This document shows positions 7,034 to 23,575 of a stretch of DNA of 38,840 nt, in pieces. A model generated the notes under the pieces. It saw only the letters and a list, made by a program, of their open reading frames with translations, was not told where the DNA came from and did not search any database. The stretch's first letter is position 1; the number at the start of each line of letters is the position of its first letter. The position numbers and the translations under genes were made by a program. The DNA is from Flavobacteriaceae bacterium (GTDB taxonomy: Bacteria > Bacteroidota > Bacteroidia > Flavobacteriales > Flavobacteriaceae), in assembly GCA_018608425.1 (NCBI GenBank), contig JABAZL010000075.1, forward strand, positions 1 to 38,840. The letters run 5' to 3'.

Positions 7034-9565
7034 ATGGATGATAATTTTTCACCTAGAGTAAAAGATGTAATTTCTTTCAGTAAAGAAGAAGCATTACGTT
7101 TAGGACATGATCATATTGGAACGGAGCATTTAATGCTTGGTATTTTAAGAGATGGAGGAGGAAAAGCAATTTCAATTTTCAATGCTATTGATGTAGATCT
7201 TGAGAATTTAAGAAGAAAAGTTGAAATCCTAAATCCTGCCTTGCTAGACAGTACTGGCCTTGGGAATTCTAAGAAAAACCTCCACTTGACTCGTCAGGCA
7301 GAACGCGCACTCAAAACCACCTTCTTAGAAGCTAAGTTATTCCAAAGTGATTTGATCAATACCGCGCATCTATTGTTGTGTATTTTAAGAAATGAAAATG
7401 ACCCTACAACCAAGTTGCTCGAAAAACTAGACATCAATTATGACTTAGTAAAAGAACAATTCAAGTTGTTACTTACTTCCGATAGTGAATATACAGACTT
7501 CAACCCTGCTGCTTCTTTTCCAGATGAAAAAGAAGATGAAGCTGGAGATAGTAAAGAAAATCCGTTTGTACCCACTTCAGAATCAGCCAAAGGAAAAAAA
7601 TCTAAAACACCCGTTTTAGATAATTTTGGAAAAGACATAACGGCACTCGCCCGTCAAGACAAACTGGACCCTGTAGTTGGTCGTGAAAAAGAAATTGAAC
7701 GTGTTTCTCAGATTTTGAGTAGACGTAAAAAGAACAACCCCTTACTCATTGGAGAACCTGGAGTTGGTAAATCTGCTATAGCCGAAGGGTTAGCCCTGCG
7801 GATTATTGAGAAAAAAGTTTCTCGTGTTTTGTACGGAAAACGACTAGTCACTCTCGACTTAGCTAGTTTAGTTGCTGGAACTAAGTACAGAGGTCAGTTT
7901 GAAGAACGCATGAAAGCTGTGATGAATGAGTTGGAAAAGAATGATGATATCATTTTATTCATCGATGAAATACATACCATTGTAGGTGCAGGGGGAGCAA
8001 CTGGAAGTTTAGATGCCTCCAATATGTTTAAACCCGCCCTAGCGCGAGGTGAAATCCAATGCATTGGTGCTACTACCCTCGATGAATATCGTGGAAGTAT
8101 TGAAAAGGATGGCGCATTAGAGCGTCGTTTTCAAAAAGTAGTTGTAGAACAAACTACGGAAGAAGAGACCATAGAAATTCTTCAGAACATAAAAGACAAA
8201 TACGAAAGTCATCACAACGTAACCTATACTGACGAAGCGTTAGTTGCCTGTGTTGAATTGACAAGTCGTTATGTTTCGGATCGTTTTCTTCCAGACAAAG
8301 CAATTGACGCTTTAGATGAAGCTGGATCACGAGTTCACATCAACAACATGAACGTTCCACAAGACGTTATTGATCTTGAAGAAGAGCTGGAACGCGTGAA
8401 AGAACATAAAAATGACGTTGTTAAAAAACAAAAATACGAGGAAGCTGCTAAACTCAGAGATGATGAAAAAAGAGTAGAGCGCAACCTTTTAACAGCACAA
8501 GAAAAATGGCATGAAGAATCTAAACTGAATCGTGTTGAAGTAACCGAAACGCATATTTCAGACGTAGTGTCTATGATGACGGGTATCCCTGTAAATAAGA
8601 TTGTTAAGTCAGAGAAAAACAAACTTTCAAAACTTAATGAAATCATAGGTAATAAACTTATCGGTCAGCAGGATGCAGTTGAAAAAGTGGTTAAAGCAAT
8701 TCAACGAAATCGTGCTGGATTAAAGGCAATTGACAAGCCTATTGGATCTTTTATTTTCCTTGGTCAAACTGGTGTTGGTAAAACACAATTAGCTAAAATT
8801 TTGGCTAGTGAAATGTTTGAATCTGAAGATAATTTGATTCGAATTGATATGAGTGAATACATGGAGAAATTTGCAATCTCACGACTCATTGGAGCACCTC
8901 CGGGCTACGTAGGCTATGAAGAAGGAGGACAACTGAGTGAAAAAGTGAGACGTAAGCCATATTCGGTAATCTTACTCGATGAAGTTGAAAAAGCACATCC
9001 TGATGTGTTCAATATGCTGCTTCAGGTTTTAGATGATGGTTTTTTGACCGATAGTTTAGGTCGAAAGATTAATTTTCAGAACACCATTATCATCATGACC
9101 TCTAACATTGGTGCCCGTCAATTAAAAGACTTCGGTACAGGCGTTGGTTTCTCAACTGCAGCTCAAAAAGCACAAACCGATGATATCGAAAGAGGGGTTA
9201 TCGAAAGTGCATTAAAGAAGACATTTGCACCTGAGTTTCTCAATCGTGTAGACGACATTGTTATCTTTAACGCTCTAGAAAAAGAAGACATCATGAAAAT
9301 TGTTGATCTGGAACTTGATAAATTACAAATTCGAATAAAGAAACTGGGCTACAACATGAGTCTTACTGAGAAAGCAAAAGAATTTATTGGCGAAAAAGGG
9401 TTCGACAAAAAATACGGAGCAAGACCTTTATCACGCGCAATTCAAAAATATCTTGAAGATCTAATTGCAGAAGAAATTGTAAACAGTCGTACAAAAGACG
9501 GTGATCAATTTCAGCTGGATTGGGATGGAAAAGAAGAAAAACTATCTCTTGAGATAAGCGCATAA
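7034..9565 (+). CDS. clpC: ATP-dependent Clp protease ATP-binding subunit ClpC
   Basis: Clp N domain, two AAA+ modules ([27 protein letters not shown]), UvrB/UvrC motif ([14 protein letters not shown]). Confidence 0.95.
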
Positions 9566-9573
9566 ATCAAAAT

Positions 9574-9618
9574 AACCGTCATTTTTTACGAATATTCTGT
9601 AAAACTGGCGGTTTTTTT
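9574..9618 (+). terminator. Intrinsic terminator of clpC
   Basis: AACCGTCA ... TGGCGGTT inverted repeat (one G.U) followed by a T run. Confidence 0.75.
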
Positions 9619-9650
9619 ATGCAAAAAAAAGAGCTAATAAGTTTCAAGTC

Positions 9651-9663
9651 AGGTCTATTTGAA
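9651..9663 (+). promoter_or_regulatory. Possible -7 element for thr leader transcript
   Basis: TCTATTTG resembles the Bacteroidota TAnnTTTG -7 box with one mismatch, about 15 nt upstream of the leader ATG; no clear -33 TTG. Confidence 0.25.
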
Positions 9664-9676
9664 TTAATTTTACCTC

Positions 9677-9778
9677 ATGAAGTTACAATCGAACCTTACT
9701 TTTGGCTCTTACAAAAACAATACAACTGTATTAACAGGAACTTCTACCTTTATTTCAACTACAGCTATTACCCCATAG
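9677..9778 (+). CDS. Putative thr operon leader peptide (33 aa, 9 Thr, 2 Ile)
   Basis: ATG..TAG encodes MKLQSNLTFGSYKNNTTVLTGTSTFISTTAITP*, 130 nt upstream of thrA; composition parallels proteobacterial ThrL. Confidence 0.72.
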   Translation: MKLQSNLTFGSYKNNTTVLTGTSTFISTTAITP

Positions 9779-9805
9779 GGGTATTCATTAACATATAATC
9801 TGTAG
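9759..9805 (+). promoter_or_regulatory. Nested inverted repeat over the leader-peptide stop codon (candidate attenuator hairpin)
   Basis: CTACAG (9759-9764)/CTGTAG (9800-9805) enclosing TACCCC-ATA-GGGGTA (9769-9783). Confidence 0.5.
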
Positions 9806-9843
9806 CTCTTGAATTCATTTCAAAAAAATAATAATTATCGTGC

Positions 9844-9889
9844 AACTAAAAGCAAAGTGTTCAACGCTTTTGTAAACCTGTTTTTAGTT
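9844..9889 (+). promoter_or_regulatory. Second inverted-repeat block immediately before thrA
   Basis: AACTAAAA (9844-9851)/TTTTAGTT (9882-9889), overlapping the alternative stem AAAAGC (9848-9853)/GCTTTT (9866-9871). Confidence 0.4.
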
Positions 9890-9908
9890 TCTCACAAAAC
9901 ACTAACAT

Positions 9909-12353
9909 ATGAAAGTCCTTAAATTTGGTGGAACTTCTGTAGCCAATTCTAAAAACATAGATCAAGTATCTGCCATTGTAGCATCCCAAGATAAAAACAA
10001 TGTCGTTGTTGTATCTGCACTAGGAGGCATTACCGATTTACTCATGTCTGCTTTACAAATTGCAGCAAAAGGAGAATCTAGTTTTACACAAACTTTAAAA
10101 GAAATTGAAGAACGGCACTTAGAACCTATTCGAGCAAGTGTACCACCAGAAAAACAAAGTGGCGTTATAAGTTTTGTAAAAGCTGAGCTGAATCGTTTAG
10201 AAACCATCTTAGAGGGGGTAATGATGCTCAAAGAAGTTACAACGAAAGCCACAGCAACAATTACTTCCTACGGAGAGCGCTTATCCAGCACTATCATTTT
10301 TGAGATATTCAAAAACAAAGGTTATGATGTTGTTCTAAAAGACGGGCGTGATCTTATTGAAACTCAAATTCAAAACAACAGAACCGTAGTAAATTGGGAT
10401 GCAACTCAAATAAAAACACAAGAATTTTTCAAAAACAACAGCAGTAAATGTACCCTTGTGCCAGGATTCGTTGCTCGGGATGCAGCAGGAAACTCAACAA
10501 CGCTTGGAAGAGGTGGATCTGATTTTTCAGCAGCTATTTTAGCCCATGTGCTGAACGCTGATGTTCTTGAAATATGGACCGATGTAAGTGGAATGTACAC
10601 CGCAAACCCAAAATTAGTTAAACAAGCTACTCCAATTGAAAAGCTTTCCTACCTCGAAGCAATGGAGTTGTCTCATTTCGGAGCAAAGGTTATCTTCCCT
10701 CCTACGCTTCAACCTTTGGTAGAGAAACAAATTCCCGTTCGAATCAAAAACACCTTTGCCCCTGAAGATAACGGTACGCTAATTGACAATCGTACTTCAG
10801 AACAAAACGGTGTAGTTGTCAAGGGAATCAGTCATATCGATCAGATTAGCTTAATCAGCCTTGAAGGGAGTGGAATGGTTGGAATTCCTGGGTTCTCAAA
10901 ACGATTATTCGAAGCCTTGTCTATTGCGCATATCAATGTGATAATGATTACACAGGCATCTTCAGAACACTCCATCTGTATTGCTGTCAGGAATCATAAT
11001 GATGCGGAAGCCAAACTCGTAATCGACACTGAATTTGCCTTTGAAATTTCATTGAACAAGGTTGCTCCTGCTAAAGTTGAAAATGATCTTGTAAACATTG
11101 CCATTGTTGGGGATAACATGAAGAATCATCAAGGGATCAGTGGTAAAATGTTCAGCTCTCTGGGGGCAAATAACGTCAATATTCGTGCTATTGCACAAGG
11201 AGCATCGGAACGTAATATTTCCATCATGATCAATAAAAAGGATACTCAAAAAGCATTGAACACCTTGCATGAGACCTTCTTTGAAAATGATATCAAAGAG
11301 CTAAACTTATTCATTGTTGGAGTAGGAAATGTTGGTAGCAAACTCCTATCACAAATCCAACAACAACAACAATATTTAAAAGACAATCTTCTACTTCGAA
11401 TTCGAGTAATCGCAATCTCCAATTCGCGCACCATGGTTCTTGGCGAAGATGCACTAGATCTCAACCAATGGAGTACAGCTCTCGAAAACGGAAAACCCAC
11501 CGATATCAATGCGTTCTTTGAACATGCAAAAGGATTGAATTTACGCAACAGCATCTTTGTAGACAATACTGCAAATGCAGGCATCGCATATGAATACGAA
11601 CGATATTTGAACAATAACATCGGGGTAGTTACCTGTAATAAAATTGCATGTGCTGACAGCCTAGAAAACTATATGAGTTTGAAACGGTCGTCACGTAAAT
11701 ATGGAAGCCCATTCCTTTTTGAAACCAATGTAGGCGCTGGATTACCCATAATTGACACCCTTAACAATCTAATTGCATCTGGGGATCAAGTAGTCAAAAT
11801 TCAAGCTGTGCTTTCCGGAAGTTTAAACTTTGTTTTCAATAACTTCAAAGAAGGTACTTTATTTAAAGACGTTGTAGTCCAAGCGCAAAAAGAGGGCTAC
11901 ACAGAACCTGACCCGAAAATTGATTTGAGCGGTATCGATGTAGCTCGGAAAATACTTATTCTAGCACGTGAAAGCGGATTGAAAATTGAATTGAAAGACA
12001 TCGAGAATGTGCCTTTTTTACCAAAAGCGTGTTTAGATACTCCAGATAACGAAACCTTTTTTGATTCTCTAATTGACCACAAAGATCATTTTGAGAAACT
12101 TCTTGATGATGCGCGCTCTAAAAACGCACGCCTAAAATACGTTGCTCAACTTGAAAACGGAGTTGCCAAAGTGGGACTACAAGAAATTCCAGAAGGGCAT
12201 GACTTTTATAATCTTGAAGGGAGTGATAATATCATCTTATTTTATACCAATCGCTATACAGAACAACCTCTGATTGTCAAAGGGGCTGGTGCTGGTGCTG
12301 AAGTAACAGCTTCAGGGATTTTTGCAGACATCATAAGAATTGGAAAACGTTAA
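9909..12353 (+). CDS. thrA: Bifunctional aspartate kinase / homoserine dehydrogenase I
   Basis: MKVLKFGGTSVANSKNI aspartokinase motif; ACT domains; C-terminal NAD-binding IVGVGNVGSKLL and homoserine dehydrogenase GAGLPIIDTL. Confidence 0.96.
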   Translation: MKVLKFGGTSVANSKNIDQVSAIVASQDKNNVVVVSALGGITDLLMSALQIAAKGESSFTQTLKEIEERHLEPIRASVPPEKQSGVISFVKAELNRLETILEGVMMLKEVTTKATATITSYGERLSSTIIFEIFKNKGYDVVLKDGRDLIETQIQNNRTVVNWDATQIKTQEFFKNNSSKCTLVPGFVARDAAGNSTTLGRGGSDFSAAILAHVLNADVLEIWTDVSGMYTANPKLVKQATPIEKLSYLEAMELSHFGAKVIFPPTLQPLVEKQIPVRIKNTFAPEDNGTLIDNRTSEQNGVVVKGISHIDQISLISLEGSGMVGIPGFSKRLFEALSIAHINVIMITQASSEHSICIAVRNHNDAEAKLVIDTEFAFEISLNKVAPAKVENDLVNIAIVGDNMKNHQGISGKMFSSLGANNVNIRAIAQGASERNISIMINKKDTQKALNTLHETFFENDIKELNLFIVGVGNVGSKLLSQIQQQQQYLKDNLLLRIRVIAISNSRTMVLGEDALDLNQWSTALENGKPTDINAFFEHAKGLNLRNSIFVDNTANAGIAYEYERYLNNNIGVVTCNKIACADSLENYMSLKRSSRKYGSPFLFETNVGAGLPIIDTLNNLIASGDQVVKIQAVLSGSLNFVFNNFKEGTLFKDVVVQAQKEGYTEPDPKIDLSGIDVARKILILARESGLKIELKDIENVPFLPKACLDTPDNETFFDSLIDHKDHFEKLLDDARSKNARLKYVAQLENGVAKVGLQEIPEGHDFYNLEGSDNIILFYTNRYTEQPLIVKGAGAGAEVTASGIFADIIRIGKR

Positions 12354-12356
12354 GCT

Positions 12357-13286
12357 ATGAATGAAATTAAAATTTTCTGTCCGGCTAGTGTTGCCAATGT
12401 CTCCTGTGGTTTTGACGTTCTAGGTTTTTGTTTAGATCCAATTGGAGATGAAATGGTGATCCGAAAAACTACCGAAAAAGGTATTCGAATCACTAAAATA
12501 GAAGGTCAAAACCTACCTCTTGAAACTCAGAAAAATGTAGCCGGAGTTGCAGGTATGGCATTGTTAGAGGCGCATCCGAGTTCTTTTGGATTTGAAATAG
12601 AAATCATCAAAGGGATTAAAGCTGGTAGTGGTATTGGAAGCAGTGCAGCAAGTTCAGCTGGAGCTGTATTTGGAATCAACGAACTTTTAGGAAGACCTTT
12701 TTCTCGGACTGAACTGATCAAGTTTGCAATGAAAGGAGAAGAACTTGCGAGTGGCTCTCCACATGCAGATAATGTCGCTCCAGTTTTATTAGGCGGCTTT
12801 ACTCTAGTACGATGTTCAAAAAGTATCGATATAATTGGCTTACCTAGTCCCTCAGAATTATACACAACTATTTTGCATCCTAAAATTGAGTTGAAAACTT
12901 CGCACGCTCGAGCTGTTCTCAAGAAAAACATTATGCTAGAAAAAGCAATTGAGCAATGGGGAAACCTCGCCGCATTGGTAAGCGGACTATACACAGATGA
13001 CTATGATTTAATCGGAAGATCGCTTGTAGATGTTGTTATTGAACCGCATCGATCTGCATTGATTCCTGGCTTTCAAGAATTAAAAAAAGCAGCTACCGAT
13101 TCGGGTGCACTTGGAAGTGGAATTTCTGGATCTGGACCATCTATGTTTGCCCTGTCTAAAGGAAAAGAAACCGCCATTCGAGTAGGAGAATGCATGCAAC
13201 AAGCGTTTTTAAAATACAATATTGAGTTTGAACTTCATATTTCTAAAATTAATCCAAAAGGGATTCACATTATATCTTCCAAATGA
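12357..13286 (+). CDS. thrB: Homoserine kinase
   Basis: GHMP kinase motif GIKAGSGIGSSAASSAGAVFGINELLG; operon position between thrA and thrC. Confidence 0.95.
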   Translation: MNEIKIFCPASVANVSCGFDVLGFCLDPIGDEMVIRKTTEKGIRITKIEGQNLPLETQKNVAGVAGMALLEAHPSSFGFEIEIIKGIKAGSGIGSSAASSAGAVFGINELLGRPFSRTELIKFAMKGEELASGSPHADNVAPVLLGGFTLVRCSKSIDIIGLPSPSELYTTILHPKIELKTSHARAVLKKNIMLEKAIEQWGNLAALVSGLYTDDYDLIGRSLVDVVIEPHRSALIPGFQELKKAATDSGALGSGISGSGPSMFALSKGKETAIRVGECMQQAFLKYNIEFELHISKINPKGIHIISSK

Positions 13287-14578
13287 TTTACAACAGTTTA
13301 AATAAAAAATCAAAAGCAGCAGAGTTCCCAGAAGCTGTAGTTCGAGGTATTGCTCCAGATAGAGGCTTATATTTTCCAGAAAAAATACACCGTTTACCCG
13401 ATTCTTTCTTCGAAAACATAGAGCAGGAATCTATTCCAGAAATTGCTTTTCAAGCGATTGCTCCTTTTGTTGAGGGAAGTATTCCTGAGAATGAGTTGAG
13501 AAAAATCATTGAAGAAACTTTAGATTTTGATTTTCCAATCGTACCCATTACCAATCAAATGGGAACTTTAGAATTGTTTCAAGGCCCTACCCTTGCTTTT
13601 AAGGATGTTGGAGCACGCTTTATGGCACGTTGTCTCGGCTATTTCAATAGGGAGAATACTTCTCAAAAGATAACCGTACTTGTTGCAACCTCAGGAGATA
13701 CTGGCGGAGCCGTTGCCAATGGATTTCTTGGCGTACCCGGAATTGAGGTTGTTATTCTTTACCCAAAAGGAAAGGTAAGTGAAGTTCAAGAACAACAACT
13801 AACAACTCTAGGGCAAAACATTACTGCATTGGAAGTAGATGGTGTTTTTGACGATTGCCAAGACATGGTCAAAACAGCATTTCTAGATGAAGACATCACA
13901 AAACACAAACAACTTACTTCTGCCAATTCAATTAATGTAGCCCGATGGTTACCACAAATGTTCTATTATTTCATCGCCTATAGAGCACTTAAAAAAATTA
14001 ATAAACCACTTGTGGTTTCTGTTCCTAGTGGAAATTTTGGAAACATTTGCGCTGGCCTAATGGCACGTGAAATCGGGTTACCCATCGACCATTTCATTGC
14101 AAGTACAAACATTAACGATGTAGTACCAGATTTTTTATCTTCAGGAGTATATACCCCTAAAAAATCTTCTCCGACGATATCAAATGCTATGGATGTTGGA
14201 GATCCTTCTAATTTCATTCGCATTCTAAAAATCTTTGGCGATGACTTCGAGAGTTTAAAAGAGACATTTTCGGGCTATCGCTTTACAGACGATGAAACAC
14301 GTGAAGCACTAAAAGAGATTCATGAAATATCGGGCTATGTAGCAGATCCGCACGGGGCAGTTGGTTATTTGGGGCTAAAAGAGTATCTCAAAGATCATCC
14401 AGAAAAGTATGGGATTTTCTTAGAAACGGCTCATCCTGTAAAATTCCTAGATACCGTTGAAGATACTTTAAACATAAAGGTTGACATTCCAGAACGACTC
14501 AAAGAAACTCTTTCTAAGACCAAAGAAAGTATCGAAATTCAAGATTATCAAGGGCTTAAAAATTTCTTGCTTCGCTAA
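13283..14578 (+). CDS. thrC: Threonine synthase
   Basis: LAFKDVGARFMAR PLP-lysine motif, VATSGDTGGAVANGFLGV; ATGA overlap with thrB. Confidence 0.96.
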   Translation: MIYNSLNKKSKAAEFPEAVVRGIAPDRGLYFPEKIHRLPDSFFENIEQESIPEIAFQAIAPFVEGSIPENELRKIIEETLDFDFPIVPITNQMGTLELFQGPTLAFKDVGARFMARCLGYFNRENTSQKITVLVATSGDTGGAVANGFLGVPGIEVVILYPKGKVSEVQEQQLTTLGQNITALEVDGVFDDCQDMVKTAFLDEDITKHKQLTSANSINVARWLPQMFYYFIAYRALKKINKPLVVSVPSGNFGNICAGLMAREIGLPIDHFIASTNINDVVPDFLSSGVYTPKKSSPTISNAMDVGDPSNFIRILKIFGDDFESLKETFSGYRFTDDETREALKEIHEISGYVADPHGAVGYLGLKEYLKDHPEKYGIFLETAHPVKFLDTVEDTLNIKVDIPERLKETLSKTKESIEIQDYQGLKNFLLR

Positions 14579-22741: not shown

Positions 22742-23274
22742 TGCGCATTATTTCAGGCTCCTTAAAAGGAAGGCGAATCACAGCTCCCAAGAAGCTTCCA
22801 GTTCGCCCTACCACCGATCGTTCCAAAGAAGCCCTATTCAATATCCTAACCAATTGGGTGGAATTTAGTGAAATTCGAATCCTGGACTTATTTTCAGGTA
22901 CAGGAAACATCAGTTACGAATTTGGATCTAGAGGTGTAAACGATATCGTGGCAGTTGATCAAAACAAATACTGTACACGCTTCATTGAAGAAACCAGTAC
23001 GAATTTAGATTTGAATGTTGCCGTAGTATGCAAAAATGTTTTTGATTACCTCAAAAAACCACACCAGAGTTTTGACGTGGTCTTTGCAGATCCACCCTAT
23101 GACCTTCCAGAAGAAGAGTTTATGAAACTTGTTACCTTAGTGTTCGAAGGAAACTGGTTGAAAGAAAACGGGCAACTGGTTGTAGAACATTCCAAACAAT
23201 ACAAATTGGATGATCACCCAAATTTTGAGTCTTCACGGAATTATGGCAGCAATACGTTTAGTTTTTTTGAATAA
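22741..23274 (+). CDS. rsmD: 16S rRNA (guanine966-N2)-methyltransferase RsmD
   Basis: MRIISGSLKGRRITAPK..RPTTDRSKEALFNIL, DLFSGTGNISYEFGSRG, VFADPPYDLP. Confidence 0.95.
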   Translation: MRIISGSLKGRRITAPKKLPVRPTTDRSKEALFNILTNWVEFSEIRILDLFSGTGNISYEFGSRGVNDIVAVDQNKYCTRFIEETSTNLDLNVAVVCKNVFDYLKKPHQSFDVVFADPPYDLPEEEFMKLVTLVFEGNWLKENGQLVVEHSKQYKLDDHPNFESSRNYGSNTFSFFE

Positions 23275-23279
23275 AAAAA

Positions 23280-23570
23280 GCAGGCCATAAGCCGGATTCT
23301 GTCGAGTCTTATCATTTATCTAGGCTTTTGATTACTCAAAAGCTCGAACCGCCTACCCTTTTACATCGAGCGAGCCGCTCTCAATCGCAAATTTACTTGG
23401 CGTTGCACCGTATAGAGTTTACCTGGTTTCACTACAGCCTTACCTGTACATACTTTCTGTTGCACTAGTCCTATTCGCCGAGGCGAACGACGGGAGTTAC
23501 CCGCTATACTGCTCTATGGTGTCCGGACTTTCCTCTCCTCATCTAGGATGAGCAGCGATAAGAGACCTGC
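23280..23570 (-). ncRNA. rnpB: RNase P RNA component, bacterial class A
   Basis: Minus strand contains GAGGAAAGTCCGGACACCATAGAGCA (P4 5' part), GGGTAAACTCTATACGGTGCAACGCC-type core, and 3' GACAGAATCCGGCTTATGGCCTGC; ends are approximate. Confidence 0.95.
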
Positions 23571-23575
23571 TTGCG

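Follow-up and report, generated by a model that had tools for sequence, protein, structure and literature searches.

In the E. coli-type thrL system (Rfam Thr_leader), a short Thr/Ile-rich ORF lies directly before thrABC, its control codons lead into a hairpin close to the stop, and the textbook layout comprises a 2:3 antiterminator and a 3:4 terminator. Some attenuators of Bacteroidetes were reportedly described by Vitreschak et al. in 2004. As a rule, it is the terminator that gives a ribosome-mediated attenuator away. In tnaC of E. coli, a Rho-dependent uORF attenuator, control by an upstream ORF that senses translation needs no intrinsic terminator. The topAI-yjhQ system of E. coli is a further Rho-dependent uORF attenuator of this kind (PMC12121999). 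For F. psychrophilum, leader-peptide attenuation has been proposed for amino-acid operons in a report whose main text gives no thrA details, and hisG appears there as a conserved structured 5' element (PMC9723704). Our literature search found nothing on a Bacteroidota thrA leader. The principle treated below has long been established, whereas we know of no prior description of a layout without a terminator or of the conservation of such a layout.

The window, that is, the whole 38,840-nt stretch of DNA analysed here, carries such a leader ahead of thrA (Table 1). From thrA loci in named records, with 92-96% protein identity, its genome was assigned to Candidatus Arcticimaribacter or a lineage very close to it. 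The leader ORF encodes MKLQSNLTFGSYKNNTTVLTGTSTFISTTAITP and then a stop codon, with nine Thr and two Ile codons, and 130 nt separate the stop codon from the thrA ATG. These values confirmed the coordinates and counts of the original prediction, which had described a 33-codon Thr-rich ORF with nine Thr at that distance. The clpC ORF ends at 9565, leaving a whole gap of 343 nt before thrA; measured from a terminator-like repeat of clpC, seen by eye only, the gap is about 288 nt, close to the 290 nt claimed earlier.

Table 1 Features of the thrA leader region and of the genes that follow it
Feature	Position	Strand	Remarks
Candidate Bacteroidota sigma-A promoter	9642..9672	+	TTTC (9642-9645), 19 nt, -7-like box TAATTTTA (9665-9672); read from sequence
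Thr/Ile leader peptide ORF	9677..9778	+	33 codons; control codons are the final 6-7 sense codons
Helix extension TTCAA:TTGAA	9754-9758 with 9809-9813	+	predicted
Long-range helix CTACAG:CTGTAG	9759..9805	+	predicted; CTACAG (9759-9764, Thr-Thr codons) with CTGTAG (9800-9805); encloses P1
P1 hairpin ACCCC-ATA-GGGGT	9770..9782	+	5' arm opens with last Thr codon; loop overlaps TAG stop; in 85/96 family loci
Linker from P1 to thrA	9783..9908	+	family-wide G-poor, C over G, without intrinsic terminator
YATAT element (CATAT)	9792..9796	+	9 nt after P1
Small hairpin TTGAA-TTCAT-TTCAA	9809..9823	+	mutually exclusive with the TTCAA:TTGAA extension
P2 interrupted hairpin	9844..9889	+	some 20 nt ahead of thrA; stem not followed by a U-run, which lies inside 3' arm
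thrA, regulated gene	9909..12353	+	814 aa; read as aspartate kinase-homoserine dehydrogenase from the original prediction and the sequence
Two ORFs right after thrA (12357-13286, 13283-14578)	12357..14578	+	read as thrB and thrC after the original prediction

To compare this region among relatives, thrA upstream regions were taken from the genus of the window and about 100 further Flavobacteriaceae genera, and 96 of them allowed the thrA start to be located. A leader was defined as an ORF of 10-60 codons that runs into a hairpin of the form ACCC(C)-N3-5-GGG(G)T and ends there. Results showed that 85 of the 96 regions contained such an ORF with the hairpin at the leader stop, while five shuffled sets of 96, passed through the identical procedure, yielded 0, 1, 2, 0 and 1. 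The procedure weighed Thr content when picking among overlapping ORFs, and Thr was also counted without any ORF choice, in all three frames of the six codons ahead of the hairpin. Thr made up 37% and Ile 21% of these codons in the leader frame, while the other two frames held 0.6% and 2.2% Thr, and the background in 14 genes of the window was 5.0%. Per codon, Thr stood at 33-41% from position -1 to -6 and at 11% at -7; this fall beyond codon -6 fits a ribosome footprint that reaches P1. The ACC of the hairpin shared the reading frame of the leader ATG in 85/85 loci, and codon usage for Thr varied among leaders (ACA 144, ACT 121, ACC 55, ACG 41). Leader and hairpin were kept in Dokdonia, Leeuwenhoekiella, Aquimarina, Tenacibaculum and Arenibacter. 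A comparison of relatives had been proposed earlier as a check, and it bore the claim out, with start, frame and Thr run conserved across genera while the Thr codons vary.

Short ORFs are common, and 3009 of 20,000 shuffles contained an ATG-initiated ORF of 33-50 codons, which could be held to favour a chance ORF without function. When the ATG ORF had to span 15-50 codons and to consist of Thr to 27% or more, however, 29 of 20,000 dinucleotide-shuffled versions of 9566-9908 qualified, and the retention of frame, Thr run and hairpin across many genera, including those named above, refutes the chance reading, to which we assign a negligible probability. The comparison strongly supports a putative Thr/Ile leader peptide for ribosome-mediated control, and it is very probable that this peptide senses Thr. 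Among the 11 loci without a match, two (L109 and L110) have classical Thr attenuators instead, two (L083 and L093) resemble the common type by eye with a different start call, and in the rest, including the small genomes L042 and L057, the leader is apparently absent. A second clade of the genus (L009-L018 except L012) kept the hairpin and the TPWG-type end with few Thr codons, and has a promoter box 13-20 nt ahead of the leader; this clade may sense less strongly.

P1, whose 5' arm opens with the final Thr codon, overlaps or adjoins the leader stop codon in most loci of the family. Of the structured elements, it alone is common to all 85 and would necessarily be disrupted by a ribosome sitting on the Thr codons. 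Covariation of its outer pair was weak (42/80 complementary against 34.4 ± 4.0 in shuffles). Past P1 lies a YATAT element, for which an anchor was found in 58/80 loci and which sits 7-11 nt beyond P1 in most family members having it. The standard deviation of its spacing was 2.0 nt from P1 and 5.3 nt from the stop codon, indicating that its position is tied to P1 and not to the stop codon. As a genome-wide module the combination was rejected: ACCCC-GGGGT with ATAT occurs mainly at thrA, the other matches look scattered, and the elements of hisG leaders are of another kind. At ilvD in the same genus, no Leu/Ile/Val leader was present at the loci with a readable start, roughly half of the total.

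In the predicted ensemble, P1 formed with a probability of 0.90 when the RNA was free and 0.11 with a ribosome mask over the final Thr codon ahead of P1, a fall that follows largely from the mask itself. Predicted access to the thrA start was the same in both states (0.58 free and 0.57 stalled, 78 loci), and sequestration of that start was rejected as a candidate. A mask that lowers P1 and leaves thrA start access unaltered points to transcription, not to thrA initiation, and control at transcription elongation is likely. Bacteroidota initiate translation without Shine-Dalgarno sequences and depend on open start regions, which speaks for translational control, in which the leader would make the thrA start more or less accessible, or translation would reinitiate at thrA after the leader. 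That reading has the unchanged access against it, as well as a linker of 60-126 nt (all loci tallied), long for reinitiation, and is very unlikely.

No intrinsic terminator was detected before thrA in any of 82 leaders of P1 type with a uniform detector, or in a scan of the window. The same detector was positive in 29/29 hisG leaders of Flavobacteriaceae, including that of the window's own genome. There, the hisG leader (L183, G000:C169) encodes MQLNTTHNHHHFTNSSEL, ends with AACCCGTTTGA-TTTT-TCAAACGGGTTTTTTT and has a candidate antiterminator segment as well as a U-run terminator; the other 28 hisG loci tested also combine a His-rich leader with a terminator. By their sequences, the hisG leaders of Flavobacteriaceae are textbook attenuators, so the thr leader does not stand alone in Bacteroidota. 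The hisG and thr leaders are alike in having a run of control codons (HHHH in hisG) before a biosynthetic operon. They differ in that hisG leaders have a strong U-run terminator, which P1-type thr leaders lack, and in that the segment past the His codons (CUCAAGCG) can pair with the terminator 5' arm (CGUUUGAG) in several hisG leaders examined by eye, a pairing without counterpart in thr leaders of that type. Since the hisG terminator occurs in the window's own genome, the bacterium has the machinery of textbook attenuation, and its thr leader probably works in another way. One genome offers a natural pair, a hisG leader that has a terminator and a thrA leader that lacks one, and scans based on terminators would miss the thrA leader despite its conservation in most of the family.

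Classical layouts do occur before orthologous thrA genes. In other Bacteroidota families, classical Thr/Ile leaders with terminators identified by eye were found at L157 (with a weaker U-run), L158 and L162, with peptides such as MIFNTSIITTIIITTGINQRG and MYNSTIIITIIITTGRNLAEE and with terminator hairpins followed by T (GCGTCCCGAT..ATCGGGACGCTTTTTTTTT in L158, GCCTTCCT..AGGAAGGCTTTTTT in L162). These three and L109 and L110 share with the window a Thr/Ile leader before thrA, but are without the ACCCC-GGGGT and YATAT unit. The ACCCC-GGGGT type was found outside Flavobacteriaceae at L151, L154, L163 and L164, and its replacement by classical attenuators with intrinsic terminators at L109 and L110, from two Flavobacteriaceae genera, indicates that both layouts interchange within the family. 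A textbook thrL-type switch in the window would use P2 as the 3:4 terminator, with TTTTTAG, inside its 3' arm or following it, as the U-run. These classical relatives, together with the covariation of P2 in the window's clade, lend it some credit. The terminator scans count against it, as do the limited distribution of P2 and the linker, to which the P1 3' arm (GGGGT) is slightly less complementary than to shuffled linkers, leaving no 2:3 helix; pairing of GGGGT with the linker as an antiterminator was accordingly dropped as a candidate. We consider the textbook switch improbable. Rfam returned no match of the window to Thr_leader at the gathering threshold or at E up to 5, and none for related loci at E up to 1. 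Besides its lack of a detectable intrinsic terminator or antiterminator, the leader differs from thrL in having no Shine-Dalgarno sequence and, in the window's clade, a probably leaderless start. Because terminator, antiterminator and Rfam match were all sought and none was found, we do not class it as a member of the thrL family. Of the thrL-like ribosome-mediated attenuation first proposed, then, the Thr/Ile leader stood (85/96 loci) and the terminator/antiterminator layout did not (0/82).

The linker is rich in C and poor in G. C exceeded G in 80/82 leaders, and the C/G ratio was 2.1 at positions 8-60 compared with 1.0 upstream of other genes of the window, reaching 3.1 at positions 32-68; this is evidence of composition and not of a rut site. 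The last 35 nt before hisG likewise have C over G (0.168 vs 0.112), and part of the G-poverty of the linker may stem from selection to keep the region around the thrA start open. Compensatory changes in P2 were found in the Flavobacterium-like clade, with weaker ones in the clade of the window. P2 is frequent but not universal, being absent in other groups. It is a real hairpin in several clades, which counts against our preferred explanation, given below, where P2 has no role. A pairing GGACAT:GTCCGT, seen by eye in a few genera (e.g. L035, L036 and L054), was rejected as not general.

The long-range helix suggests a switch between competing helices, in which the Thr-codon segment would pair with the downstream CTGTAG...TTGAA once the ribosome has gone, or be covered by the ribosome during starvation, which would let the downstream hairpin form. 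Whichever helix forms, and not P1 alone, would set the output. Its 11 pairs are kept in 9/9 members of the clade; in the Flavobacterium-like clade, whose P2 itself covaries, an analogous ATTACAA can pair with the P2 5' arm, with 93% of cells paired. However, the helix is kept without compensatory changes and its covariation does not exceed that of shuffles (being invariant in the clade, it yields no covariation evidence), leader-linker pairing is better than with swapped leaders by just some 0.6 kcal/mol (2-3 standard errors), and the arrangement is not recognisable in other clades. Such a switch is unlikely.

A TAnnTTT[GA] box ends 4 nt ahead of the leader ATG in 10/10 members of the window's clade, and about 13-22 nt ahead of it in most other genera. 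The consensus of the -7-like box is TAnnTTTG, from which the box of the window departs at the final base (A in place of G). In F. psychrophilum this box was mapped to -12 to -5, a position that would place +1 at 9677, exactly at the A of the leader ATG, and hence predicts a leaderless translation start in the window's clade. The prediction is sensitive: if it is off by a base or two, the start could fall past 9677. Translation of the leader is probably leaderless in this clade, which would answer, for the window's clade only, the question raised earlier of how initiation without a Shine-Dalgarno sequence is achieved.

The explanation that we favour, and hold to be reasonably probable, is that thrABC is governed by a ribosome-mediated attenuator responsive to Thr (and Ile), with 9677-9778 encoding its leader peptide, and that this attenuator acts in three steps that leave Rho unfixed. 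First, as the promoter box suggests, transcription would begin at the leader ATG and the first ribosome would load on a leaderless AUG. Second, and with strong comparative support, the last approximately seven sense codons, rich in Thr and Ile, would run the ribosome into P1. Third, with ample Thr-tRNA the ribosome would reach the stop inside P1 and depart, P1 would form behind RNA polymerase, in the window's clade along with the CTACAG:CTGTAG helix, and elongation would break off within the linker, rich in C and poor in G, the most likely agent being Rho on a paused polymerase. With low Thr, the ribosome would park on the Thr codons and cover the P1 5' arm, and thrA would be transcribed; a ribosome stalled on the Thr-Thr codons would also block pairing of CTGTAG in the window's clade, acting in the same direction.

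In this model, off would amount to Rho-type termination or to pausing. With no U-run, the composition suggests that the off step would most simply be Rho in the G-poor linker, possibly with P1 as a pause hairpin. We advance an off step of this terminator-free, Rho type only tentatively. In tnaC and topAI-yjhQ the signal is arrest by a peptide-antibiotic or by tryptophan, whereas here Thr codons would be the signal and the role of Rho is inferred. The thr leader may instance a widespread Bacteroidota design, in which P1 alone reads ribosome position, its 5' arm opens with a control codon, YATAT follows at a near-fixed distance, there is neither terminator nor antiterminator, textbook hisG attenuators coexist, and the AUG is leaderless in this clade; we put this wider reading at slightly short of even. 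The thr leader also offers a clean test of ribosome timing against RNA polymerase in a phylum without Shine-Dalgarno initiation.

A rho gene scored above the cut-off in 16/19 genomes of the genus and was not found in the window's own assembly, which is incomplete. In one relative rho looks broken, with pieces containing internal stops (G017:C1:618173-619785), which could be a sequencing error. Elsewhere in the window, a bacterial RNase P class A RNA lies at 23273-23573 on the minus strand (Rfam RF00010, 201 bits).
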